The notes below the pieces were generated by a model. That model ran no database searches. It saw only the letters and a list, made by a program, of their open reading frames with translations, and was not told where the DNA came from. 40,815 nucleotides of DNA, from contig JADFLR010000037.1 in assembly GCA_022564295.1 (NCBI GenBank), positions 1 through 40,815 of the forward strand, in the 5' to 3' direction. Each line of letters opens with the position of its first letter. The stretch's first letter is position 1. Positions 4,818 to 40,815 of the stretch are shown here, one piece after another. The stretch is from Bacteroidota bacterium. Lineage in GTDB: Bacteria; Bacteroidota; Ignavibacteria; Ignavibacteriales; Ignavibacteriaceae. The translations under genes and the position numbers were made by a program.

Positions 4818-5831
4818 TTATTCAAAATCGTGTTCGAAGTAATCAATGCCTCTTTGTGCCATTGCATTTTTACTCTTAAGACGTGAATTAAGCCGGTTTT
4901 GGAATATTTTTGCTGCATCGTGACCATAGTGTTTTAATAAGTAGTTAAGTGCAATTACTTCTGAAATAACGGTAATATTTTTACCTGGCAAAATAGGTAG
5001 TCTGATGTAAAGTATTTCGACGCCTGAAATGAGGACAGTTTGTTCGCTTAAACCTGTTCGGGTATAATGCGTTTTTTCATCCCAAATCTCAAGCTCTACA
5101 ACAATTTCCAGTCGTTTTTGAAATCTAATAGCACGAATTCCAAACATTCTTTCTACATCAATAATGCCTAAACCACGGATTTCCATAAAATGTTTAGCAA
5201 TATTTGTACCGGCACCCATTAAAATGCCTTCGCCCTTTTTTGTAAGAATAATCACATCATCCGCAACTAATCGGTGTCCTCTTTCCACAAGGTCTAAAGC
5301 AACTTCACTCTTACCTACCCCTGATTTACCGACGAACAGCATTCCTGCACCATACACATCAACAAAGGAGCCATGTATTGTAATTCTTTCGGCAAATTGA
5401 TCATCAAGAAAATCGCTGATAAAATATGTTAACTTAGTTGTAGTATCGGAAGAACTGAAAAGAGGAATTTTATACTTTTTTGCCAGTTCCTTAAGGATAG
5501 TTGTCGGTTTATTTTTATTGCTTAAAATAATGCAGGGAATTTCAAACTTGAAAATATTTTCAAGTGATTTTTTTTGTTCGGATTTCGAAAGATGATTTAA
5601 ATATCTTAATTCCGTATTGCCTAAAACCTGAACACGTTGATAAGCAAAAAGTTCCACAAACCCGGCTAACGCTAATCCGGGTCTGTGTAAATTTTGATCG
5701 AATATTTTTCTGCTAAAGTCGCAGGATTTTGATAATAATTTTAATTTGAATAATCGCTTTGTTTTTTCATAAAAGAACTCAACTGTTATTGAGTCTTTAC
5801 GAGTTATCGATTTATCATTAATATTGATCAT
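4818..5831 (-). CDS. hprK: HPr(Ser) kinase/phosphorylase
   Basis: This bifunctional enzyme phosphorylates and dephosphorylates a serine of HPr or an HPr-like protein. Over 337 residues, the N-terminal half is the family's DRTGG-like domain. The catalytic half contains His153 in 'IHGSFVD', the P-loop 'GKSGVGKSE' (168-176), 'LVADDVI' and the signature 'EIRGLGIIDVERMFG'. All expected elements are present. The ATG overlaps the TGA of the hpf gene by four bases (ATGA), so the two are translationally coupled. No HPr gene is in the window; in Gram-negatives such kinases often sit near nitrogen-PTS genes. Confidence 0.93.
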   Translation of the reverse strand: MININDKSITRKDSITVEFFYEKTKRLFKLKLLSKSCDFSRKIFDQNLHRPGLALAGFVELFAYQRVQVLGNTELRYLNHLSKSEQKKSLENIFKFEIPCIILSNKNKPTTILKELAKKYKIPLFSSSDTTTKLTYFISDFLDDQFAERITIHGSFVDVYGAGMLFVGKSGVGKSEVALDLVERGHRLVADDVIILTKKGEGILMGAGTNIAKHFMEIRGLGIIDVERMFGIRAIRFQKRLEIVVELEIWDEKTHYTRTGLSEQTVLISGVEILYIRLPILPGKNITVISEVIALNYLLKHYGHDAAKIFQNRLNSRLKSKNAMAQRGIDYFEHDFE

Positions 5832-6130
5832 TTTGCGTAAGTGGTTCTTTTCGATTTTAATTTTTTGAGCTGCCTCGATAACTTATCAACACTTGAACTG
5901 ACAGACTTTTTAAAATCATCTGAATTTTCTGCTGCATTAAAAGTTTGACCCGGAACATGAAGAACAATTTCAGATTTCTTAACAGAAGCTTTTACATTTT
6001 GATAACTAAGTATTATGTCGGCATGGAGAATATTGTCATTGTATTTTTGCAATGAAGAAACTTCTTCATTAATAAAGTCTTTCAAACTATCGTGAAGTTT
6101 GAATTTGCGAGCTGTTATTGAGATGTTCAT
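5828..6130 (-). CDS. hpf: short ribosome hibernation factor (HPF/RaiA family)
   Basis: A 100-residue cytoplasmic protein of the short HPF/YfiA class, which binds the 30S A/P-site region and silences ribosomes in stationary phase. It begins 'MNISITARKFKLHDSLKDFI' and has the beta-alpha-beta-beta-beta-alpha layout, with a Lys/Arg-rich C-terminal helix ('QLKKLKSKRTT'). It lacks the long C-terminal dimerisation domain. A clear Shine-Dalgarno (GGAGGATAAC) precedes the ATG. It overlaps hprK by four bases. The hpf-hprK neighbourhood resembles the proteobacterial rpoN-hpf-ptsN-hprK cluster. Confidence 0.9.
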   Translation of the reverse strand: MNISITARKFKLHDSLKDFINEEVSSLQKYNDNILHADIILSYQNVKASVKKSEIVLHVPGQTFNAAENSDDFKKSVSSSVDKLSRQLKKLKSKRTTYAK

Positions 6131-6144
6131 GTTATCCTCCAGTA

Positions 6145-7026
6145 TTATGATTTTGGGTGTGATTTTTTATAAGTTGATTTCAAACGTTCTACACTTACGT
6201 GTGTGTAGATTTGAGTTGTAGAAAGATTTTCATGTCCCAATAATTCTTTCACTGCGCTCAAATCCGCTCCTCTGTCAAGCATATGCGTGGCTGCACTATG
6301 TCGTAAAATATGCGGGCTTTTCTTTTTAATATCAGTAACCTTTGATAAATATTTATTGATTATTCTATAGACGAATCTAGGATAGATTCTGTTTCCTCCT
6401 TTTGTTTTAATTAATGGTTCATTGCTGCTTTGAAGATTTTTAATGTTAAGATATTCTTCTATTATTTCAATCGATTTTTGTCCCACTGGAACAATTCTAA
6501 TCTTACTTCCCTTCCCTTTTACCCTGAGGGTTTGGTTTTTAATATCAAGATCACCAAAATTCAAATCGCATAATTCCGATACTCGTAATGCACAGCCATA
6601 AAGCAATTCAAAAATAATTTTTATGCGCTCCGGTTCATCTTCGGCTTCATCGGCTAAATCATATATCTTCAAAATTGATTCTGTTGTGGTTACCTCCGGC
6701 AATTTTTTATTGCTGCGAGGGTTTTTAATATACGCAACTGGATTGGAAATAATTAATTGATTATGAAAAGCATATTTCAATAATCCTCTTACCGAAGCAA
6801 GTTTCCTCGATATGGACCTTTTCTCCAAACCAGTTTCACTTAACAGCATTAAATATTTTTTGATGAACCTTTCTGTTAAATCTTTTACAATAACTTTATT
6901 TCGTGAGTTACAAAATTCTATAAATTGATTTAGGTCAACCCGATATGCCCTAACTGTTTGGGGAGAATATCTTTTAATACTCTCAATGTAATCGAGATAT
7001 GAATTGATAAGTTTTTCTATCTTCAT
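6145..7026 (-). CDS. xerD: tyrosine recombinase of the XerC/XerD family
   Basis: A site-specific recombinase resolving chromosome dimers. It is about 293 residues, the usual size. The N-terminal SAM-like core-binding domain ('SYLDYIESIKRYSPQTVRAY') is followed by the catalytic domain with Arg in 'GCALRVSELCDL', Lys in 'GKGSKIRIVP', 'HILRHSAATHML' (His and Arg) and 'LGHENLSTTQIYTHV' (His and the Tyr nucleophile). The ATG at 7026 is preferred over the TTG one codon earlier (7029). It is 14 bases upstream of hpf, so probably the same operon. XerC versus XerD cannot be separated by eye. No dif site was identified. Confidence 0.88.
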   Translation of the reverse strand: MKIEKLINSYLDYIESIKRYSPQTVRAYRVDLNQFIEFCNSRNKVIVKDLTERFIKKYLMLLSETGLEKRSISRKLASVRGLLKYAFHNQLIISNPVAYIKNPRSNKKLPEVTTTESILKIYDLADEAEDEPERIKIIFELLYGCALRVSELCDLNFGDLDIKNQTLRVKGKGSKIRIVPVGQKSIEIIEEYLNIKNLQSSNEPLIKTKGGNRIYPRFVYRIINKYLSKVTDIKKKSPHILRHSAATHMLDRGADLSAVKELLGHENLSTTQIYTHVSVERLKSTYKKSHPKS

Positions 7027-7077
7027 CAAATGAACTTTTTCCCTTGCCTGAAAGGATTTACACGGCCTTTGAAATAC

Positions 7078-7509
7078 CTAACTCAATAAAGCAAAATTAT
7101 ATATATTTGTCAAATTATTTTCAATTCTTTTCATCTTCACACGGTCATTTTTCTTGATATCATCATATCCTTTTAAGTGCAAAATACCGTGAATTATCAA
7201 CCGCGTGAACTCTTTAGATAAAGATACTTTGTATTTTCGGGCAGATATTTTAGCATCATCAATCGAAATAAATATTTCACCGTCAAGCTCAAAATGGCTT
7301 CCTGAATAGTTAAAAGTGATTATATCCGTTGAGCAGTTGTGGTTTAAGAACTCTTTATTAACATTATGAATATCGTTGGCAGTAATAAAAGTTATGAATA
7401 AAGATTCAATGCTAAATTCCAAATCTTCTCTTAACAAGCCAACAAGTTTGTGAATGCGTGTTTTGTTTATCTTTTTAGTTGAAGATGAAACGTATAAATT
7501 TTTAATCAA
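7078..7509 (-). CDS. ybeY: endoribonuclease YbeY (rRNA maturation factor)
   Basis: This metal-dependent RNase takes part in 16S rRNA 3'-end maturation and ribosome quality control. The 143 residues match the family. 'STDIITFNY' and 'LDGEIFIS' are the conserved strand motifs. The metal site reads 'HGILHLKGYDD', with His107 and His111 present, but the third position of the usual HGxLHLxGYDH motif is Asp117 instead of His. Such replacement is seen in Bacteroidota relatives as I recall, so it need not mean loss of activity. The only start in frame is TTG at 7509, with no evident Shine-Dalgarno. Confidence 0.88.
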   Translation of the reverse strand: MIKNLYVSSSTKKINKTRIHKLVGLLREDLEFSIESLFITFITANDIHNVNKEFLNHNCSTDIITFNYSGSHFELDGEIFISIDDAKISARKYKVSLSKEFTRLIIHGILHLKGYDDIKKNDRVKMKRIENNLTNIYNFALLS

Positions 7510-7529
7510 TTTATTTTATTGTAAATAAT

Positions 7530-8108
7530 TTACCCTGGAAATTCTATTCCTATTTTTTTCAGAGAATCTGTTGTTGTTTTGGTATAACCAACATACCTCT
7601 TAGCACTAATTTCAAACTCATGTATTTCTTCTTTTGTTAAATCTCTAACAATTTTTGCAGGAACGCCAGCCACAAGTTTACCCGAAGGAACAACAAACCC
7701 GGGTCGTACAACCGCACCGGCTGCAACCATAGCATTTTCTTCAACAATTGAATCATCAAGTAAGACTGCACCAATACCGATTAAGCATAAATCATTTAAA
7801 GTACAACCATGTAACTTAACCGAATGACCAATTGTCACCTTGCTTCCAATATTTAAAGGGAATGCTCCGTTTGTAACATGCAGCATCGAGCAATCCTGAA
7901 TATTAGTGTAGTCACCAATTTTAATGTAATGAACATCACCACGGATAACACTATTATACCACACACTTGAGTGTTCACCTATTTCTACATCACCGATTAT
8001 TTTAACACCGGATGCGAGAAAAACAGTTTCATGAAGCTTTGGCAACAGATTTTTATAGGGAAATAGTTTTTGTTCTTTAATCAGTCTTTGTATTCCGGCG
8101 GCTGCCAT
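7530..8108 (-). CDS. gamma-carbonic-anhydrase-like hexapeptide-repeat protein
   Basis: A left-handed beta-helix protein made of hexapeptide repeats. Three metal-ligand histidines at the gamma-carbonic anhydrase spacing are visible in 'SMLHVTNG' and 'TIGHSVKLHGC'. The motif 'VWYNSVIRGDVHYIKIGDYTNIQD' is typical of the YrdA/PaaY group. The open frame reaches an ATG at 8123, but the ATG at 8108 (starting Met-Ala-Ala-Ala) is better placed, with 'GGAAAAGAGA' just before it. The start lies within the 3' end of the DUF3108 gene, so the two are coupled. Carbonic anhydrase activity is not assured for this subgroup. Confidence 0.85.
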   Translation of the reverse strand: MAAAGIQRLIKEQKLFPYKNLLPKLHETVFLASGVKIIGDVEIGEHSSVWYNSVIRGDVHYIKIGDYTNIQDCSMLHVTNGAFPLNIGSKVTIGHSVKLHGCTLNDLCLIGIGAVLLDDSIVEENAMVAAGAVVRPGFVVPSGKLVAGVPAKIVRDLTKEEIHEFEISAKRYVGYTKTTTDSLKKIGIEFPG

Positions 8109-8905
8109 TTGTCTCTTTTCCATTCCATTAATTCAATTGAAATATGTCCGATAATTACCTCAAGTTCTGCAGTAACGGGAACCTGGTATTCATCATTCGT
8201 AAACCATCCTTCATAATATCCTGTAAGTCCAAAGATACCCGTAAATCCTGTTTCACCGTCAATTCTAAAGCAATCTATTTCGTAACCAACTGCATCGATT
8301 GAGATATTTTGTTGATCAAAATAATAATTAATTCTTGTTGATGCTGTATCCCCGTTAATGAAACAAGGAACAACAACACTTCCATTTCTTTGGAGATTAA
8401 ATCTTGCAAAATATAGTAATGATAATCCGTCCTGATAGCTGCCGCTCAATTTTACCACCGTATCAAGTGATGCTTTTTGTTCATGGAGTTTGCCCTTTAA
8501 AATATGTACAAGATTATCTTCTTTGAAGAAGTATTTGGTGTAAGAAGTATCCCTTTCATTAAACGCAAATGCCTGAAAATAAACCGGGTGTAAGGTTGAA
8601 TCGAACCAACTTTCGTATATTTGGTGCAGATCTACAAAAGGCAGTCCTTCGTAAGAATCAATATAAGCTATAGATTTATAAATGATTTTTTCATCAACAG
8701 TATCTTTTGCATAAACTTTTGTTCTTAATTCTCCCAAATTCAAAAAAGCATATTTAATAATGTAGGTGAACTCATCACCAAGGTGTAGTTTATTATCGAG
8801 CGAAATATTTTTTTGAGTTATACTATCAATTTGTGAGTATGTGAATTGTATAAAACACATAAGAAATATATGGATGCATAATAATATTTTCAATCCATTA
8901 TTCAC
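8081..8905 (-). CDS. DUF3108 domain secreted protein
   Basis: A 274-residue protein with an N-terminal signal peptide (hydrophobic stretch about residues 5-22, ending 'FTYS'), followed by a beta-rich domain of the DUF3108 type: 'LHLGDEFTYIIKYAFLNLGE' at the start, then 'HQIYESWFDSTLHPVYF' and 'VGYEIDCFRIDGET'. Members are periplasmic or outer-membrane-facing proteins of unknown function. The start codon is GTG and overlaps the TGA of the S41 protease gene by four bases (GTGA), so the protein is made together with that protease. Confidence 0.8.
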   Translation of the reverse strand: MNNGLKILLCIHIFLMCFIQFTYSQIDSITQKNISLDNKLHLGDEFTYIIKYAFLNLGELRTKVYAKDTVDEKIIYKSIAYIDSYEGLPFVDLHQIYESWFDSTLHPVYFQAFAFNERDTSYTKYFFKEDNLVHILKGKLHEQKASLDTVVKLSGSYQDGLSLLYFARFNLQRNGSVVVPCFINGDTASTRINYYFDQQNISIDAVGYEIDCFRIDGETGFTGIFGLTGYYEGWFTNDEYQVPVTAELEVIIGHISIELMEWKRDKWQPPEYKD

Positions 8906-10503
8906 TTAAGTTTCGCAAGATCCTCCGCCTCATCAAAAAGAGTAACAGATTTGAGAAACTGAATGTCTATATCTAAAAGAACAGTATACCAACCTTCGTT
9001 TTTCCAGTAGTTACGTGCAACCTGTGCTTTTAGCCGTGTGAAGATATAAACTTTATCTTTATTAAATTCTTCTTCAACCAATTCAACATCTTTATCCATA
9101 GCAAAACGAATAAAGCTTTTTTCTTCTTCTGGACTAAAACTAAATTCTCTTCTAAACTTATCAAGATCATCTTTATATTTTGCTTTAAGGCGGTCGCCAT
9201 TCTTATCAAGATATTTAAGTACAAACTGATAGAACAAATTACTCCTTAACAAATCGCGAGTATAATTAGTTAGCTTTCCTGATTTTGTAATATAATCAGG
9301 TGTTATACCACCGCCACCGTATACAGTCCTTCCGCCGGAAGTCTTAAATTCCGGGCGTGAAGAATCTTGTTCGGCAGTGTGCTTAAGATTATCGCCTTCC
9401 TCTTCGTTTCGCTCTCCCAAATCAGAATAATAATCTTTTTTATTCTCATATCCTCTTTGTATCGATCTGCCCGATGGAGTAAAGTATTTAGAGATTGTAA
9501 TCCGAAGCGCTGAGTTATCGAACAGTGGGAATTGTCTTTGCACCAATCCTTTTCCAAATGATGTTTCACCAACAATCAATCCCCTGTCCCAATCCTGTAC
9601 TGCACCCGAAACAATTTCACTTGCAGATGCACTTCCCTGGTTTATTAAAACTATAAGCGGAATATCTTCGTAGGCGGATGATCTTTTGGCAAAGTAGTCT
9701 TCATCAAATTCACTTCTTCTTCCGCGAGTATAAACAATCTTTTTATCTCCGTTTATAAACAAATCTGCTATTTTTACAGCTTGATTAAGATAACCGCCGG
9801 GGTTGCCTCTTAAATCCAAAATTAGTTTTTTCATTCCGGTTGTATTTAAATCATTCAATGCATCATTAAGTTCGTCATAAGTTGTTTCGGAGAACCGGGA
9901 AACACTTACATAACCTATTTTATCATCATACATAAAATGTGTATCAACCGAATAGATTGGAATTTTATCTCGTGTTATTTTGTATTCTATACCTTCATCA
10001 ATTCCGTGCCTAATAATAGTTACTATTACTTTTGTTCCTGCTTTTCCTCTTAGTTTTTCTCTTACTTCATCATTCGTAATTCCTATACAATCTTCACCTT
10101 CTATTTTAACAATTCTATCGCCTGACATAATTCCAAGTGCTTCACTTGGACCTCCTGTAATGGGAGAAACAACTGTTAAAGTATCATTCACTACCTGGAA
10201 TTCAATTCCGATTCCTTCAAAGTCACCACGAAATGATTCTTCAATACTATCAAATTGTTTTGGAGGGATGTAAACAGAGTGGGGATCAAGTTGATCTAGC
10301 AATCCTTTTATAGCTTCTTCAACTAATTTTGGTGTATCAACTTCTTCAACATAAAATTTTTCAGTGTAGGTTAATACATCGTTAAATTTTCTTATGCCAT
10401 CGCGAAGGTTATCGCCTGAAAATATTTTCTCGATTTGAATACCGAGAACAATACCGGCAGTAAGTGCTATAAATAAAAAAGGATATTTAAATGAATTGCC
10501 CAT
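8902..10503 (-). CDS. ctpA: S41 family C-terminal processing protease (CtpA/Prc type)
   Basis: A periplasmic Ser/Lys-dyad protease of 533 residues. A membrane anchor or signal covers about residues 7-22. A PDZ domain covers about 95-170 ('GIGIEFQVVNDTL', 'SGDRIVKIEGED'). The catalytic S41 domain contains 'DLRGNPGGYLNQAV', the nucleophile region 'GSASASEIVSGA' (about 290-301) and Lys318 in 'SFGKGLVQ'. A roughly 150-residue C-terminal helical tail follows. The ATG has a good upstream GGAGA. It leads an operon with the DUF3108 protein and the hexapeptide protein. The substrate is unknown. Confidence 0.93.
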   Translation of the reverse strand: MGNSFKYPFLFIALTAGIVLGIQIEKIFSGDNLRDGIRKFNDVLTYTEKFYVEEVDTPKLVEEAIKGLLDQLDPHSVYIPPKQFDSIEESFRGDFEGIGIEFQVVNDTLTVVSPITGGPSEALGIMSGDRIVKIEGEDCIGITNDEVREKLRGKAGTKVIVTIIRHGIDEGIEYKITRDKIPIYSVDTHFMYDDKIGYVSVSRFSETTYDELNDALNDLNTTGMKKLILDLRGNPGGYLNQAVKIADLFINGDKKIVYTRGRRSEFDEDYFAKRSSAYEDIPLIVLINQGSASASEIVSGAVQDWDRGLIVGETSFGKGLVQRQFPLFDNSALRITISKYFTPSGRSIQRGYENKKDYYSDLGERNEEEGDNLKHTAEQDSSRPEFKTSGGRTVYGGGGITPDYITKSGKLTNYTRDLLRSNLFYQFVLKYLDKNGDRLKAKYKDDLDKFRREFSFSPEEEKSFIRFAMDKDVELVEEEFNKDKVYIFTRLKAQVARNYWKNEGWYTVLLDIDIQFLKSVTLFDEAEDLAKLK

Positions 10504-34821: not shown

Positions 34822-36057
34822 TTATCTAAGAAGAACTATTTTATGCTTAAGAATCTCCCTATCGGTCTGCAGCATAATTATATAAATTCCACTCGAAAGA
34901 GATTGTCCATCAAGCGAAAAGTTGTATTCTCCCTCATCCAATAATCCTGAATATAATGTTGTTACCTTTTCGCCAATACTGTTATAAATATGCAATCTTA
35001 CAAATGACTTATAATTGATTGCAATAACAACAGTAGTTTGAGGATTAAAAGGATTGGGATAAGATGATAAGTATTCTTCACCTGACCGGTCATGCTCATA
35101 TAGAATTCTAACTGTACCGTTATATTCAAAAGTACCGTCATTATCTATCTGCTTAATGCGATATATATAGTTCCCATACTGAATCGGTTTATCTTCATAT
35201 AAATAATTATGTGGCGAATTACTATTTCCCGCACCTTCTATAAATCCGATAGTCTCGTAAAAAGAATCTCCTTCAAAAGTTCTTTGTACCTCCCAGCCAA
35301 AATTATTTACTTCAGTGGCTGTTACCCAATTTAGTAAAACCTTTCCATCAGAAATTGTACCTGTAAAACTAACTAATTCTACAGGTGTTGGGCTGGCAAT
35401 TGCATCTTCAATAATTATCCTACCGTAACCATTCTCATAATCGTATGTTCCACCGTTGGAACCACTTCCCCTGGAAAGTAATCGTGCCTCATCAATACTG
35501 ATACCCAAATAATCCGATATGAAAGTAACCTGACCAGCAATATAGCCATTTGCAAAACTCGAAAGATTTCCGGTGGAAATTGGATCAATGGAGTAGAAAT
35601 CAATTTGATATCCGGTAACGTTTGAAGTAATGCCCGCGCCTGTAACGATTATAGGGCAGTCCTGTAAATTTCCTGTATATGTTTCAATATGACTATTACT
35701 ACCCGACGGCATTATTAATTTAACAGTTGGATGCTGATTTGCCAAAGATATGTAAGAGCTCAATCCTGTGGTTGATCGGATGATAATGTCATAATTGTTA
35801 TTTTCAGCGTAAGTAAAGGAAGAGGATACCGCATTATCGTAAAATAGGTCAACATTCCCACTGAACGACGATGAATTATAACTGGAATATCCATATAAAA
35901 AAGATTGTTTTACGTCTAAATCGTGCTGCCCGCCAAAACCGGAAATAAGAACGTTATGATTTGAACTTTGCTGTTGAGAATAAATTGGATTAGCTATACT
36001 TAAGCAAGTTAATACTAATATCCAGAATAATTTTTTATAGTTCCGATAAATATTCAT
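34822..36057 (-). CDS. T9SS-sorted secreted protein with a subtilase-like, possibly degenerate domain
   Basis: A 411-residue secreted protein. The signal peptide is about 1-27 ('LTCLSIANPIYSQ'). Residues 34-220 look like a short, degraded S8 subtilase: 'HNVLISGFGGQHDLD' at the start, 'NHPTVKLIMPSGSN'-like strands, then 'LSSFANGYIAGQVTFIS' where subtilases have GTSxAxPxVAG (Ser167 could match the nucleophile), and 'YDYENGYGRIIIEDAI' like the usual closing 'G.G.vna..A'. No clear Asp or His block was found. A fibronectin-like region (about 226-320) follows. The C terminus has 'SYPNPFNPQTTVVIAI' and 'LSSGIYIIML', the type A Por/T9SS sorting tail. Confidence 0.75.
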   Translation of the reverse strand: MNIYRNYKKLFWILVLTCLSIANPIYSQQQSSNHNVLISGFGGQHDLDVKQSFLYGYSSYNSSSFSGNVDLFYDNAVSSSFTYAENNNYDIIIRSTTGLSSYISLANQHPTVKLIMPSGSNSHIETYTGNLQDCPIIVTGAGITSNVTGYQIDFYSIDPISTGNLSSFANGYIAGQVTFISDYLGISIDEARLLSRGSGSNGGTYDYENGYGRIIIEDAIASPTPVELVSFTGTISDGKVLLNWVTATEVNNFGWEVQRTFEGDSFYETIGFIEGAGNSNSPHNYLYEDKPIQYGNYIYRIKQIDNDGTFEYNGTVRILYEHDRSGEEYLSSYPNPFNPQTTVVIAINYKSFVRLHIYNSIGEKVTTLYSGLLDEGEYNFSLDGQSLSSGIYIIMLQTDREILKHKIVLLR

Positions 36058-36193: not shown

Positions 36194-36607
36194 CTAAATT
36201 ATTGAATACAACGTAAGTTGTGTTGGAACGTTGGTATTAATTAGACAACTGCAATTTTTTACTTGTTCATTGAACCATTTTAAATCAACAGAATTAATTT
36301 CAGCGGAACGACGCAACCAATTTAATTCGGCATCAATTATTGATTTACCTGAGCAAGTAAGCTTTAGTCCATCTGCTATAAAGGATTTCGCAACTGCATA
36401 GCTGTTAAACTTTATCGGCTCTTCGCAAAGGCATGCGTTGTGTAAAAGAGTGTTTAATATCTCTTCACAAAACGAAGATGAAAATCCTAATCTTTTTCCT
36501 GCTTGTAAGATAATTGTTTTTTGTATTTTTGAGATGTGATTGTTTTTCCTGGCAAGTATCAGTAGTCCTCTCAGATAACTGCTTTTATCAATTACAGCTA
36601 TGTTCAT
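36194..36607 (-). CDS. TerB-like all-helical protein, unknown
   Basis: A 137-residue protein with no signal. 'SSYLRGLLILARKNNHISKIQKTIILQAGKRLGF' followed by 'SFCEEILNTLLHN', then 'YAVAKSFIADGLKLTCSGKSIIDAELNWLRRSAE' gives two helical halves of similar pattern, as in the TerB-like fold. The typical acidic metal-binding residues are not obvious. Several Cys (including a 'NCSCL' pair) are noticeable. Function unknown. Confidence 0.65.
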   Translation of the reverse strand: MNIAVIDKSSYLRGLLILARKNNHISKIQKTIILQAGKRLGFSSSFCEEILNTLLHNACLCEEPIKFNSYAVAKSFIADGLKLTCSGKSIIDAELNWLRRSAEINSVDLKWFNEQVKNCSCLINTNVPTQLTLYSII

Positions 36608-37391: not shown

Positions 37392-37952
37392 ATGGTTTCA
37401 ATAGTTTCTCTTTGGCTGCCTATACTACTATCTGCAGTTGCGGTTTTTTTAATAAGTTCAATTATTCATATGGTACTCCAGTATCACAAGAATGATTTTG
37501 TAAAACTTCCATCCGAAGAGCCGGTAATGGATGATTTGAGAAAAGCAAACATCCCACCAGGCGATTATCACTTTCCTCGTGCAAAGGATATGAAGGATAT
37601 GAATTCACCTGAGTTTGTTGAGAAAATGAAGAAGGGACCTGTTGGTTTTATGACAATAATGGAGAGTGGTTCGCCAAATATGGGTAAACAACTCTTTCTC
37701 TGGTTCATTTATAGTATTATAGTTGGAATTTTTGCCGCTTACATTTCCGGTAATGCATTAGCTCCCGGAGCACATTATCTTGCAGTATTCCGTTTTGCCG
37801 GAACTACTGCATTTGTAGGTTACAGCCTGGCTTTAATGCAAAATAGCATATGGTATAAACGAAATTGGGGCGCTACACTCAAATCTATGTTTGATGGATT
37901 GATTTACGCTTTATTCACAGCAGGAATATTCGGCTGGTTGTGGCCTGTTTAA
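37392..37952 (+). CDS. multi-pass membrane protein, unknown
   Basis: A 186-residue protein with a first helix at about 6-30 ('[23 protein letters not shown]'). A soluble loop of about 65 residues contains '[17 protein letters not shown]' and '[14 protein letters not shown]'. Three more helices follow at about 99-118, 128-147 and 162-184. I have a feeling of having seen it as an uncharacterised family in several phyla, but cannot name it. A GAGGAGA precedes the ATG by six bases. It is the first plus-strand gene and is separated from the next by a terminator-like hairpin. Confidence 0.8.
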
Positions 37953-38073: not shown

Positions 38074-39111
38074 TTGCAAAAACAATTATCTAACTGGAGT
38101 CCTCCAAATGATTGGCTAAAAATTAAAACCATTGATGCACACACTGCAGGTGAGCCGTTAAGAATAATCCTCTCAGGATTGCCTGAAGTAAAAGGTAAAA
38201 CCATCCTCGCAAAAAGAAAATATATGAAGGAGAATTTGGACCACTTAAGAACAACATTAATGTTTGAACCACGGGGACATGCTGACATGTATGGCGCAAT
38301 AATTACTGAGCCGGCAAACGAAGGTTCGGATTTTGGTGTTTTGTTTCTGCAGAACGAAGGTTACAGCACAATGTGCGGGCACGGGATCATTGCGCTTACC
38401 AAAGTTGTTGTTCAAACCAGAATGATTGAACCCATGGAACCAATCACTCAAATTAAAATTGATACACCTGCAGGATTAGTAACTTCATTTGCAAAAGTAA
38501 ATAACGGAAAGGTTGAATCGGTTTACTTTCATAATGTTCCATCTTTTGTTTTTACATCGAATCAGCAAATTGAAGTTTCAGGAATCGGAAAAATTAAATA
38601 TGATATTGCTTTCGGTGGTGCGTTTTACGCCTTTGTGAATGCAGATGAATTAGGAATCGGAATGAAAAAACAAAATTATAGGGAGTTGATTGAAAAAGGA
38701 ATGGCAATTAAAAAAACTGTTATGAAAAGCTATCCCATTAAACATCCTTTTGAGGAAGACTTAAACTTTCTCTATGGTACTATCTTTTACGGGGAATCTC
38801 ACAGTAAAGAAGCAGACAGCAGGAACGTTTGTATATTTGCAGAAGGCGAAGTTGACCGTAGTCCCACTGGAACTGGTATAAGTGCAAGAATGGCTTTGCA
38901 TTATGCGAAAGGAGAAATAAAAATAAATCAACAAATGGTTATTGAAAGCATCATCGGTACAAAGTTTACTGGAAGTGTACATCAAATAACTAAGTTTGGG
39001 AAATATGATGCGGTGATACCACAGGTTGCAGGTAATGCATACATAACAGGCAGGCACGAATTTCTAATTGATCCGGAAGATCCACTCAAAGAAGGATTTA
39101 TACTCCGATAG
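38074..39111 (+). CDS. trans-3-hydroxy-L-proline dehydratase (proline racemase superfamily)
   Basis: Dehydrates trans-3-hydroxy-L-proline to delta1-pyrroline-2-carboxylate. From the TTG at 38074 the protein is 345 residues, the family's usual length. It starts with 'WSPPNDWLKIKTIDAHTAGEPLRI'-type sequence, with Cys101 in 'STMCGHGIIAL' and Thr265 in 'DRSPTGTGISARMAL'. Proline racemase has Cys at both positions; Cys/Thr is the mark of the dehydratase. The frame is open to a TTG at 37960, but that extension crosses a terminator-like hairpin and is hydrophobic and unlike the family. The next gene begins two bases after its stop. Confidence 0.88.
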   Translation: MQKQLSNWSPPNDWLKIKTIDAHTAGEPLRIILSGLPEVKGKTILAKRKYMKENLDHLRTTLMFEPRGHADMYGAIITEPANEGSDFGVLFLQNEGYSTMCGHGIIALTKVVVQTRMIEPMEPITQIKIDTPAGLVTSFAKVNNGKVESVYFHNVPSFVFTSNQQIEVSGIGKIKYDIAFGGAFYAFVNADELGIGMKKQNYRELIEKGMAIKKTVMKSYPIKHPFEEDLNFLYGTIFYGESHSKEADSRNVCIFAEGEVDRSPTGTGISARMALHYAKGEIKINQQMVIESIIGTKFTGSVHQITKFGKYDAVIPQVAGNAYITGRHEFLIDPEDPLKEGFILR

Positions 39112-39113
39112 AT

Positions 39114-40064
39114 ATGACAAACAATCTTCCCTTCATATCCGATGAACAAGTTAAAAAGCTACTTCCGATGAATGAAGCAATTGAGTTGATGAAAAATGCT
39201 TTTATTCAAATCACTAATAAATCGGTAACAATCCCCCAAAGAATAAATCTCGATATGCCAGAAGTTAATGCTGATTCACTTATTATGCCTGTGTATTCGG
39301 TTGATGAAAAAAAATACGGAGTTAAAGTTGTTTCATTAAATCGGGATAATCCTTCAATAAATCTTCCATTCATTCACGCATTGATGATTTTGTTCGATGC
39401 AGAAAACGGAAAACCACTTGCTATACTTGATGCGGAAAACCTTACTGCTATCAGAACAGGTGCAGCTTCCGGTCTTGCAACACAATTGCTTTCAAATGCA
39501 AATTCAACCGTTGCAGCAATATTCGGAGCGGGAATTCAGGCAAGGTATCAGCTTCGTGCAATTTGTGAAGTAAGAAATTTAAAAACAGTTTTATTATTCG
39601 ATAAAAGCCTATCAAAAGTAGAATTGTTTAAGGATGAAATGGAACGTGAGATTAATATAAGCATAGAAATTTGCAGGGATGAGAATGTGCTAAAGAATGC
39701 ACAAATTATCTGCACTGCAACAACTTCGTCTGTTCCTATATTTGATGATAAATTTATTTCAGATGGCACACACATAAATGCAATTGGTTCATACCAGCCG
39801 GGTAATCGTGAAATTCCTTCTGCTACAATAACTCGTTCAATAATATTTGCTGATAGCAAAGACGCGTGCCTAAAAGAAGCAGGCGATCTGATCATACCAA
39901 AAAATGAAGGGATGGAATTCGAAGTAAGTGAGATCGGTGAAGTTTTACAAAATAAAAAATCCGGAAGATCATCTGAAGAAGAGTTAACTTTGTTCAAATC
40001 AGTTGGTAATGCTGCGCAGGATTTAATCTGCGCAATTCATATCTTTGAGAAGTATAAATTTTGA
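39114..40064 (+). CDS. ornithine cyclodeaminase/mu-crystallin family reductase (probable delta1-pyrroline-2-carboxylate reductase)
   Basis: A 316-residue NAD(P)-dependent protein. N-terminal 'FISDEQVKKLLPMNEAIELM', 'MPVYSVDEKKYGVKVVSLN' with the catalytic Lys, 'LDAENLTAIRTGAASGLA', the Rossmann loop 'AAIFGAGIQARYQLRAI' and 'INAIGSYQPGNREIP' are family marks. Ornithine cyclodeaminase, ketimine reductase and alanine dehydrogenase share this fold. Being two bases downstream of the 3-hydroxyproline dehydratase points to reduction of its product to L-proline. The activity is inferred from context. Confidence 0.88.
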   Translation: MTNNLPFISDEQVKKLLPMNEAIELMKNAFIQITNKSVTIPQRINLDMPEVNADSLIMPVYSVDEKKYGVKVVSLNRDNPSINLPFIHALMILFDAENGKPLAILDAENLTAIRTGAASGLATQLLSNANSTVAAIFGAGIQARYQLRAICEVRNLKTVLLFDKSLSKVELFKDEMEREINISIEICRDENVLKNAQIICTATTSSVPIFDDKFISDGTHINAIGSYQPGNREIPSATITRSIIFADSKDACLKEAGDLIIPKNEGMEFEVSEIGEVLQNKKSGRSSEEELTLFKSVGNAAQDLICAIHIFEKYKF

Positions 40065-40074
40065 CGGATACAAA

Positions 40075-40103
40075 TGTCATCCTTCCACAGGAATAGGATG
40101 ACA
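40075..40103. repeat. Perfect hairpin between the reductase and peptidase genes
   Basis: TGTCATCCT (40075-40083) and AGGATGACA (40095-40103) form nine pairs, extended inside by TCC/GGA. No T-run follows. The arm spelling (TGTCATCC) resembles the inner arm of the 12.5-kb palindromic element (TGTCATTCCC), so it may be debris of the same kind. The 40104-40189 stretch has no gene. Confidence 0.5.
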
Positions 40104-40189
40104 ATAAATAGAAAGTCTTTGTCGCACTGAGCTTGCCTGTAAGCCATTGGCGGATCTAAGTTTGACTTCAATAAAATATATATTACAAT

Positions 40190-40815
40190 ATGCTGATTAA
40201 AGAAAAAATAGAACAAGCCAAATTATTACTGAAAGAATTTGATATTGATTGCTGGATAACTTTTGTTCGTGAGAGTCAGATAAATGGGGATCCGACTTTG
40301 GCATTCCTCTCCCCTGCCGATGTTACTTGGCATTCGGCTTTCATCTTTTCAATAGATGGTAAAGCTCATGCAATTGTTGGTAAGTATGATCAGAAAACAA
40401 TTGAAGAAACAGGTGCTTATGATGAAGTAGTTGGATTCGTGGAAGGGATAAAAGAACCTTTTCAATCCTATATGAAAAAATTGAATCCAAAAAACATCGC
40501 ACTTAATTATTCGGAAGGGAGTGAGATTGCTGATGGAATTACGTACGGAATGTATTTAACACTATTTAATCTTCTTGATGAACTAGGAATGTCTGATAGA
40601 ATAATTTCTGCAGAAAGAGTTGTATCTGCACTGAGAGAAAGAAAATCACAAACAGAAATTAATTATATAAAAGAAGCAATAATAATTACTGAAGAAATAT
40701 TTAATGAAGTAACGAAATTCATCAAACCAGGAAAAACTGAAAAAGAAATTGCAGGATTTGTGAAATCCGAAGTTGAAAAACGAAATCTGGAATTTGCCTG
40801 GGAACCTTCGGTTTG
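40190..40815 (+). CDS. M24 family (Xaa-Pro aminopeptidase-like) metallopeptidase, N-terminal part
   Basis: The frame starts at the ATG at 40190 and runs off the right edge after about 208 residues. The visible part has the creatinase-like N-terminal domain ('IEQAKLLLKEFDIDCWITFVRE', 'HSAFIFSIDGKAHAIVG', 'PKNIALNYSEGSEIADGITYG') and the start of the pita-bread domain ('VVSALRERKSQTEINYIKEAI', 'FIKPGKTEKEIAGFV'). The metal ligands lie beyond the window. Such enzymes often cut before proline, which fits the neighbouring hydroxyproline genes. Confidence 0.85.
   Translation, partial: MLIKEKIEQAKLLLKEFDIDCWITFVRESQINGDPTLAFLSPADVTWHSAFIFSIDGKAHAIVGKYDQKTIEETGAYDEVVGFVEGIKEPFQSYMKKLNPKNIALNYSEGSEIADGITYGMYLTLFNLLDELGMSDRIISAERVVSALRERKSQTEINYIKEAIIITEEIFNEVTKFIKPGKTEKEIAGFVKSEVEKRNLEFAWEPSV

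Follow-up and report, generated by a model that had tools for sequence, protein, structure and literature searches.

What purpose is served by three genes crowded at the very end of a contig from an Ignavibacteria-type genome, and do they form a complete cassette or the edge of something larger? The window, that is, the whole stretch of DNA that was analysed (positions 1-40,815), is the entire contig C41 of genome G000, and it was studied within a comparison set of 97 genomes, G000 included. A sequence-only reading had proposed here a cassette for the salvage of 3-hydroxyproline from peptides, made up of a dehydratase, a reductase and a peptidase, and all three genes are present at the positions it gave them.

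The predicted dehydratase and reductase genes

The first gene, a racemase-family dehydratase gene (THD; 38074..39111, + strand), starts with TTG at 38074, as does the frame of its G034 orthologue at the matching place, and its product scores 395 bits for Pfam Pro_racemase. The best PDB match is 6r76, with 64.5% identity over 341 aa, an entry described in the available part of PMC9309405 as the T. litoralis T3LHypD structure. Read from TTG 38074, residue 101 is Cys (in MCGHG), while the position of the second catalytic Cys is occupied by Thr at residue 265 (in DRSPTGTG). This Thr is found in 10/10 full-length members of the group, the window included (two further members end before the position and are outside this count), and likewise in 12/12 named THD loci, a set that overlaps the ten. 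The Cys101/Thr265 dehydratase signature noted from the sequence alone is thereby borne out, no Cys being found at position 265, and the conservation of Thr265 led to the rejection of a Cys/Cys racemase or epimerase identity for THD. The NCBIfam equivalog cut-offs are missed by THD, both for proline racemase (406 of 556 bits) and for the T3LHyp dehydratase models (NF045511, 401 of 540 bits; NF047722, 241 of 550 bits).

The second gene belongs to the ornithine cyclodeaminase/mu-crystallin family (OCD; 39114..40064, + strand; 316 aa; Pfam OCD_Mu_crystall, 215 bits). The gap of two bases that had been reported between both genes is exact, with the THD stop at 39109-39111 followed by 'AT' and the OCD ATG at 39114. 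Its best PDB match is the P2C reductase 6t3e (38.9% identity, 218 bits) and the next is an alanine dehydrogenase (146 bits), while it scores below the cut-off of each of 14 NCBIfam models (NF004793, 223 of 322 bits; NF045512, 137 of 400 bits). The best PDB E-values of 4e-155 for THD and 1e-63 for OCD mean that these matches are not due to chance. THD is predicted to dehydrate trans-3-hydroxy-L-proline, and OCD is the predicted delta1-pyrroline-2-carboxylate reductase.

Under an alternative assignment, THD would be a racemase, an epimerase or a promiscuous enzyme, and OCD would reduce another imine, for example as an alanine dehydrogenase. In its favour, the available text of PMC4113996 reports that some PRS proteins combine epimerase with dehydratase activity, proline racemase ranks first for THD among the NCBIfam models by a small margin (406 vs 401 bits for the T3LHyp dehydratase, neither at cut-off), and OCD attains no NCBIfam threshold. 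This assignment is nevertheless very unlikely in view of the Thr that replaces the second catalytic Cys throughout the group, the identity of THD to a solved T3LHypD, the 218 bits of OCD against the P2C reductase as compared with 146 against alanine dehydrogenase, and the location of the Cys/Cys paralogue of G081 in a different, Pseudomonas-type-looking cluster. The pairing of both predicted enzymes, already suggested from the sequence, is supported by their distribution, since every one of the 7 genomes with OCD also belongs to the 12, out of 97, that have THD (p 6e-8, a value that ignores shared ancestry). OCD adjoins THD in only 4/12 THD genomes and was not found in 5/12. By itself, the THD/OCD pair represents known chemistry and adds one more member to an established pathway.

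The M24 peptidase gene and its linkage to the dehydratase

OCD is followed by a spacer of 125 bp (40065..40189, no strand) with short inverted arms, GTCATCCT and AGGATGAC. One further partial copy exists in G000 (contig C49; 57 bp, 77%). As no other match outside the window has an E-value under 0.01, and as other searches returned nothing beyond the copy in the window itself and overlapping loci, the spacer was rejected as a dispersed repeat. The third gene (40190..40815, + strand) encodes an M24-family peptidase, of which the N-terminal 208 aa are present, and runs off the end because the window is the entire contig; a truncation mutation was rejected, the cut being the contig end. Of the 208 positions in the Pfam M24 profile, the fragment covers just 2-43, at 21 bits by hmmscan (cut-off 23) and 24.4 bits when the genome was searched, so its identity leans on full-length relatives. 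Six relatives have M24 proteins that are 63-78% identical to it, and in four of them the gene adjoins THD (G001, the closest at 78%, together with G086, G087 and G081). The full-length G001 protein scores 162 bits for PF00557, and its best NCBIfam match is PepQ (119 of 630 bits), a score too low for a subfamily assignment. The M24 fold carries five metal ligands, and the region that holds them lies outside the window fragment; 4/4 motif patterns searched are matched by the G001 relative, whereas the strict patterns are matched in 2/4 cases on contig C55 of G000 and in fewer or none in some relatives. The window protein is predicted to act on Xaa-Pro peptides.

An M24 gene, of either one of two subtypes, stands in the cluster at 11/12 THD loci, the window included, the twelfth locus being truncated. 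The proposed linkage between dehydratase and peptidase is therefore conserved, and the absence of linkage that the sequence-only reading had considered was not found; of the three-gene order, the M24 part recurs (11/12), but OCD is beside THD in only 4/12. It might be argued that the M24 gene is a chance neighbour, as peptidases of this kind are general enzymes in almost all these genomes (at E<=0.001, 92/97 contain some M24 protein related to the fragment) and the 125-bp spacer separates it from OCD. Such a coincidence is the least probable of the alternatives weighed here, given that a close M24 orthologue (at least 63% identity) occurs in only 7/97 genomes, its own included, 5/7 of which have THD (p 2e-4, shared ancestry ignored), and that M24 genes of both subtypes adjoin THD.

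A wider gene island in relatives and a matching continuation on a second contig

In relatives, the cluster continues beyond the limits of the window with a second proline dehydrogenase (ProDH2) and an aldolase of the 4-hydroxy-2-oxoglutarate (HOGA) type, often with an aminotransferase of the alanine-glyoxylate (AGT) type and sometimes with a peptide transporter or HypD, the glycyl-radical 4-hydroxyproline dehydratase; a POT peptide transporter and an S37 peptidase are found in several of these clusters. In G000, contig C55 starts inside an M24 gene and proceeds with ProDH2-HOGA-EamA-S37, which is the gene order that follows M24 in G001, except for the missing AGT. ProDH2 lies there at C55:874-1800 and the HOGA-like gene at C55:1838-2713; the canonical proline dehydrogenase of G000 is at C45:81129-81950. 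By synteny, C41 and C55 may be neighbours in the genome. No match to AGT at E<=1e-60 or to HypD at E<=1e-100 was found in G000, whose best matches to the island-type P5C dehydrogenase (34%) and the POT transporter (39%) are each on another contig.

The HOGA-like protein has human HOGA1 as its best PDB match (213 bits; best DHDPS, 149 bits). The human residues Ser77, Asn78, Tyr168, Lys196, Ser198 and Gly222, whose active-site roles are discussed in the available part of PMC3188589, are kept in 30/30, and the Tyr140 position is Phe in 26/30, a change (Y140F) that in human HOGA1 is wild-type-like according to the same source. By comparison, Thr/Thr/Ala occupy positions 77/78/198 in two DapA proteins from these genomes. 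In a midpoint-rooted FastTree, given without supports, the HOGA-like proteins cluster with human HOGA1 and are separated from three DapA as well as from the DHDPS-family protein of G081 contig C38 (Thr77, Leu78, Ser198), and on this grouping an identity as DapA or as a Pseudomonas-type deaminase was rejected. The AGT-like protein scores 400 bits to 1vjo and 300 to human AGT.

ProDH2 has Thermus proline dehydrogenase as its best PDB match, with Leu at Thermus Tyr275 in 32/32 proteins (the G035 copy, split over two contigs, is left out of this count), while Tyr is present in 10/10 canonical proline dehydrogenases examined. We take this site to be that of the Tyr favouring proline over hydroxyproline (Tyr540 in PutA). 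This reading of the change builds on E. coli PutA, in which Ser and Ala mutants of Tyr540 were reportedly tested, Leu not being among them. Human HYPDH presumably has Ser at the equivalent position and, because ProDH2 has Leu instead, orthology to HYPDH is not claimed, although ProDH2 may well work like it. In a FastTree, ProDH1 and ProDH2 form separate groups, with a weak support of 0.384.

Both genes are distributed together. HOGA and ProDH2 co-occur in 30 genomes, with HOGA only in 2 (G081, G071), ProDH2 only in 3 (G042, G045, G054) and neither in 62 (p 2e-19, a value that ignores shared ancestry), and in each of these 30 genomes the two genes share a contig and a strand at a distance of no more than 600 bp, some of them being pieces at contig ends. 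AGT (E<=1e-60) is found solely in HOGA genomes (22/22), corresponding to 22/32 HOGA-bearing genomes. HypD exceeds its curated cut-off in 23/97 genomes, reaching 1314 of 1100 bits in one relative, and lies inside the island in several. Moreover, Stygiobacter electus 09-Me (L159) presents the order aminopeptidase P-THD-ProDH2-HOGA-AGT.

The gene identities, residues, co-occurrence and adjacency observed here suggest that the three genes are probably the terminal part of an island devoted to the use of (collagen-like) peptides that contain hydroxyproline. One arm of this island would serve 3-hydroxyproline and the other, of vertebrate type, 4-hydroxyproline. The cassette originally proposed thus holds as to its dehydratase signature, reductase pairing and M24 linkage, but a unit for 3-hydroxyproline only is too narrow, since the ProDH2, HOGA-type and AGT-type partners present in many relatives point at 4-hydroxyproline. 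A simpler account would limit the locus to 3-hydroxyproline salvage plus ordinary proline catabolism, ProDH2 being another proline dehydrogenase and the HOGA- and AGT-like proteins serving other carbon flux. It is in line with the established chemistry of THD and OCD, with the Thermus enzyme as best match of ProDH2 and with G086, which has THD-OCD-M24 without HOGA or ProDH2. HOGA-like genes also exist in other phyla, where, among the matches listed, Asn78 and Ser198 are kept in 23/23 and ProDH2 stands alongside in 0/23 (78 loci used of the best 80 of 221, L179 and L181 having been dropped as no HOGA frame was called). Because these residues are kept there with no adjacent ProDH2, they do not prove hydroxyproline use by themselves, and they were rejected as proof. 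Yet this simpler account is unlikely, as a canonical proline dehydrogenase is already present in 93/97 genomes, including all 33 with ProDH2, the Tyr-to-Leu change is present in all 32 copies compared, HOGA and ProDH2 pair almost exclusively with each other and are neighbours in 30 genomes, and HypD, which its NCBIfam model identifies as a 4-hydroxyproline enzyme, lies inside the island of several relatives.

In the island as we picture it, M24 peptidases would cleave imported peptides, presumably of collagen-like origin, at (hydroxy)proline residues. THD would convert trans-3-hydroxy-L-proline into delta1-pyrroline-2-carboxylate, which OCD would reduce to L-proline, to be directed towards glutamate by the canonical proline dehydrogenase. 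Trans-4-hydroxy-L-proline would be handled by the neighbouring genes, placed on C55 in G000, with ProDH2 putatively turned from proline to hydroxyproline as its substrate. The next steps, by a general P5C dehydrogenase and a putative aspartate-type transaminase, would yield 4-hydroxy-2-oxoglutarate, which the HOGA-type aldolase would split into pyruvate and glyoxylate, and in those 22 HOGA-bearing genomes the AGT-type aminotransferase would turn glyoxylate into glycine.

Comparison with known hydroxyproline pathways

We lean towards the broader view that Ignavibacteria carry a clustered vertebrate-type trans-4-hydroxy-L-proline route plus a trans-3-hydroxyproline route with genes for peptide import and cleavage, and that this would be a third bacterial 4-hydroxyproline route, its hydroxyproline dehydrogenase derived from a Thermus-type proline dehydrogenase by a Tyr-to-Leu change. 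Bacterial hydroxyproline papers, in their available parts, describe the epimerase route or HypD, and a limited literature search, mostly outside subscription papers, found no report of a bacterial HYPDH/HOGA route or of hydroxyproline work in this lineage. If true, the clustered dehydrogenase-HOGA-AGT set would stand beside the epimerase route and HypD, the anaerobic alternative, and would open bacterial counterparts of human HYPDH and HOGA1 to study. The available text of PMC13155685 describes the human HYPDH as a primary hyperoxaluria drug target whose structure had not been determined. The island also suggests the recycling of collagen-like necromass by some Ignavibacteria, and it matters more than the THD/OCD pair alone.

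The 3-hydroxyproline arm resembles the trans-3-hydroxy-L-proline pathway of T. litoralis (6r76/6r77 and 6t3e), which likewise combines a Cys/Thr dehydratase (64.5%) with an OCD/mu-crystallin-family reductase (38.9%) and is also present in bacteria and mammals (L3HYPDH, CRYM). Unlike in T. litoralis, the window genes are adjacent, tied to M24 peptidases and a 4-hydroxyproline-type set, and located in an Ignavibacteria-type genome. In Bacilli, a t3HypD cluster linked to an OCD-family reductase and peptidase families has been described (eLife 2014, PMC4113996), and the reductase and peptidases are shared partners; those named in the available part of that paper are DAAO, DHDPS, aldehyde dehydrogenase, OCD and MLD2, with no proline dehydrogenase/HOGA/AGT set among them.

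The Pseudomonas/Streptomyces-type route consists of an epimerase, a DAO-type dehydrogenase, a DHDPS-family deaminase and a KGSA dehydrogenase (PMC6608401 and PMC5144071, available parts). Like the island, it employs a PRS enzyme and one of the DHDPS family, but it begins with the epimerase and has no second proline dehydrogenase. Contig C38 of G081, where the Cys/Cys paralogue forms part of a separate cluster, is a likely instance of this pathway. As to the glycyl-radical HypD system, its gene is inside the island of relatives and absent from the G000 matches at the threshold given above.

Finally, vertebrate 4-hydroxyproline catabolism proceeds through HYPDH (PRODH2), P5CDH, AspAT, HOGA1 and AGT, with HYPDH and HOGA unique to the pathway and AGT as its final step (PMC8779045, available text), and the mammalian route leads to pyruvate and glyoxylate whereas the bacterial one leads to alpha-ketoglutarate (PMC5144071, available text). 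The island is like this route in its altered ProDH2, in its HOGA-type aldolase, which keeps the active-site residues of the human enzyme, and in its AGT homologue (22/32), and unlike it in that ProDH2 is short, Thermus-type and carries Leu, the genes are clustered, and HypD is linked to them in several relatives.

Genes at the right end of the window

The window spans all of contig C41, one of 59 in a 4.07-Mb genome (G000), and ends on three plus-strand genes: a proline-racemase-superfamily gene (THD, predicted trans-3-hydroxy-L-proline dehydratase; 38074-39111), an ornithine-cyclodeaminase-family gene (OCD, predicted delta1-pyrroline-2-carboxylate reductase; 39114-40064) and an M24 peptidase gene that starts at 40190 and is cut off after 208 aa where the contig stops (40815). 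The sequence-only reading was correct in its description of the three genes, of the two bases between the THD stop and the OCD start, and of Cys101 and Thr265 in THD, numbered from the TTG start at 38074; the frame of the orthologue in the relative G034 also has a TTG start at the matching place. The OCD–M24 spacer (40065-40189) contains inverted arms, GTCATCCT/AGGATGAC, and has one partial copy elsewhere in the genome (57 bp, 77%).

Directly upstream of THD lies a 186-aa apparent membrane protein (37392-37952), for which no match was found in Pfam or NCBIfam; in G034, a 76% homologue (L064 2240-2800) and the dehydratase are roughly 3 kb apart. Further upstream, a minus-strand gene (34822-36057) encodes a 411-aa secreted-looking protein; judged only by eye, its C-terminus (SYPNPFNPQTTV...) looks like a sorting domain.

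THD matches PDB 6r76 at 519 bits (64.5% identity over 341 residues), 6R76 and 6R77 being structures of the T. litoralis trans-3-hydroxy-L-proline dehydratase (PMC9309405), while the top PDB match of OCD is the delta1-pyrroline-2-carboxylate reductase 6t3e (218 bits, 38.9% identity; next match, 146 bits). Against these assignments, neither protein reached an NCBIfam equivalog cut-off; THD scored 406 of 556 bits with the proline racemase model and 401 of 540 and 241 of 550 with the T3LHyp dehydratase models. Thr occupies the second catalytic position in 10/10 full-length THD members, counting the window's and leaving out two truncated before that position. According to the available text of PMC4364671, Cys-Cys marks racemases or epimerases and Cys-Thr dehydratases, and the dehydratase/reductase pathway occurs in mammals, bacteria, and archaea; a dehydratase cluster in Bacilli has already been tied to an OCD-family reductase and peptidase families (PMC4113996, in part). 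Because of these structure matches, class rule, and precedents, the dehydratase–reductase step proposed earlier is sound, but not new.

Distribution of the pair and the M24 peptidase

Across 97 genomes (G000 and 96 relatives), THD is present in 12 and OCD in seven, all seven among the 12 (Fisher p 6e-8, ignoring shared ancestry). OCD adjoins THD in four of the 12 (the window, G001, G086, and G056), lies elsewhere in the genome in three (G081, G082, and G087), and was not found in the other five within this search. One further match to THD, on contig C38 of G081, is a Cys/Cys paralogue and stands outside the 12.

An M24 gene shares a same-strand cluster with THD at 11/12 loci, counting both subtypes: the M24 subtype in G000, G001, G086, G087, and G081, and an aminopeptidase-P type (~464 aa) in G067, G085, G075, G093, G056, and G082. 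At the twelfth locus, in G034, the contig end falls inside THD. Among the best 80 of 221 named loci, whose species partly overlap the 97-genome set, 12/12 THD loci have an M24 gene. The window's fragment scored 21 bits (cut-off 23) in one Pfam search and 24.4 bits in another; close relatives of it (63-78%) occur in six other genomes, adjoining THD in four, and the top NCBIfam model for the G001 protein is PepQ (119 of 630 bits). Both the chemistry and the gene linkage support the salvage route drawn earlier, from peptide cleavage at proline to L-proline, but it makes up just one portion of a larger island.

An island with a predicted 4-hydroxyproline arm

G001 carries, in sequence, THD, OCD, M24, ProDH2 (a second proline dehydrogenase), genes for a DHDPS-family protein and a class-V aminotransferase, EamA, and an S37 peptidase; the arrangement is identical in CP070637.1 (Ignavibacterium sp. 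bin94; probably the same genome). Contig C55 of G000 starts within an M24 gene, followed by ProDH2, the DHDPS-family protein, EamA, and S37, and on this synteny is taken as the continuation of C41. However, the M24 pieces at window 40190-40815 and C55:1-299 (L054) differ (299 bp, 82% identical), which suggests two M24 genes in tandem, a duplicated gene broken by the assembly, or else that the contigs are not neighbours. The best reading of the island is that it serves hydroxyproline-containing peptides. Homologues of a 137-aa protein encoded at window 36194-36607 lie close to the island in both G001 (L055 14350-14781) and G081 (L058 2505-2933).

The DHDPS-family protein has human mitochondrial 4-hydroxy-2-oxoglutarate aldolase, HOGA1, as its top PDB match (213 bits; best DHDPS, 149). 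HOGA1 Ser77, Asn78, Tyr168, Lys196, Ser198, and Gly222, for which roles are reported in the available text of PMC3188589, are retained in 30/30 island members, whereas two DapA proteins of the genome set carry Thr at positions 77 and 78 and Ala at 198. Phe replaces Tyr140 in 26/30 bacterial proteins, and human Y140F is as active as the wild type (PMC3188589, same text). The island aminotransferase scores 400 bits against 1vjo, annotated as an alanine-glyoxylate aminotransferase (AGT), and 300 against human AGT.

Canonical ProDH is present in 93/97 genomes, including 33/33 with ProDH2, which is therefore an extra enzyme. The position of Thermus Tyr275, which we take to be that of E. coli PutA Tyr540, holds Leu in 32/32 ProDH2 and Tyr in 10/10 canonical enzymes examined (10 of 93); Leu also recurs in 49/49 ProDH2 of named loci, an overlapping set among the matches listed. 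Ser or Ala mutants of PutA Tyr540 reportedly lose the preference for proline over hydroxyproline (Ostrander and colleagues, in 2009), and human hydroxyproline dehydrogenase (HYPDH) has Ser there.

Of the 97 genomes, 30 have both ProDH2 and HOGA, two only HOGA, three only ProDH2, and 62 neither (p 2e-19). AGT (E<=1e-60) is present in 22 genomes, every one of which has HOGA (p 2e-14), and 11/12 THD genomes have HOGA (p 1e-5); all three p-values ignore shared ancestry. ProDH2 and HOGA lie within 600 bp on the same strand in 30/30, some being pieces at contig ends. Some results weigh against the 4-hydroxyproline reading: G086 has THD, OCD, and M24, with neither HOGA nor ProDH2 found; G000 has no AGT at E<=1e-60, a best match of only 34% to the island-type P5C dehydrogenase, and POT transporter matches of 39% on other contigs.

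The named set comprised the best 80 of 221 HOGA relatives, 78 with a called reading frame. Among the matches listed, an Ignavibacteria-like group (n=55, delimited by locus number, with most titles naming Ignavibacteria, Melioribacter, or Bacteroidetes) has ProDH2 in 49/55 loci and AGT in 37/55. The 23 others (L169, L171-L173, and L175-L195 except L179 and L181), titled mostly Nitrospirae, Atribacteria, Desulfobacterales and other Deltaproteobacteria, Chloroflexi, and Clostridia, include some short loci and show, among the matches listed, ProDH2 in 0/23 and a distant AGT relative in 3/23. Since Asn78 and Ser198 are nevertheless kept in 23/23 of their listed aldolases, the aldolase signature by itself is no evidence for hydroxyproline use; linkage to ProDH2 is.

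Comparison with known 4-hydroxyproline routes

The glycyl-radical 4-hydroxyproline dehydratase HypD exceeds its cut-off in 23/97 genomes, with none in G000. Compact islands at L066 (G090) and L164 contain HypD activase, HypD, aminopeptidase P, a POT transporter, M24, ProDH2, HOGA, AGT, and P5C dehydrogenase; apparently, radical and dehydrogenase routes coexist in one genome there.

A different arrangement is seen in G081 (L068, C38:200000-216000; 4925-9705), where the Cys/Cys racemase-family gene is flanked on one side by a DHDPS-family/aldehyde-dehydrogenase-like pair and on the other by a D-amino-acid-oxidase-like gene (both "-like" names given by eye). By its look, this cluster resembles the Pseudomonas-type 4-hydroxyproline pathway, in a genome that also has the Cys/Thr dehydratase.

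As far as the accessible texts go, 4-hydroxyproline yields pyruvate and glyoxylate in mammals and alpha-ketoglutarate in bacteria such as Pseudomonas (PMC5144071), an epimerase route is described in Streptomyces (PMC6608401), and, of the enzymes in the vertebrate pathway, only HYPDH and HOGA belong to it alone, AGT catalysing the final step (PMC8779045). Because of the HOGA1-like aldolase, the AGT-like aminotransferase, the extra ProDH2 with Leu, and their co-occurrence and adjacency, the island's 4-hydroxyproline arm is read, from sequence comparison, as vertebrate-type. The literature matches listed include no bacterial report of such an arm, which is weak evidence as they mostly do not cover subscription papers. 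Beside a 3-hydroxyproline pair already known, the vertebrate-type arm is the part of the island that could be new.
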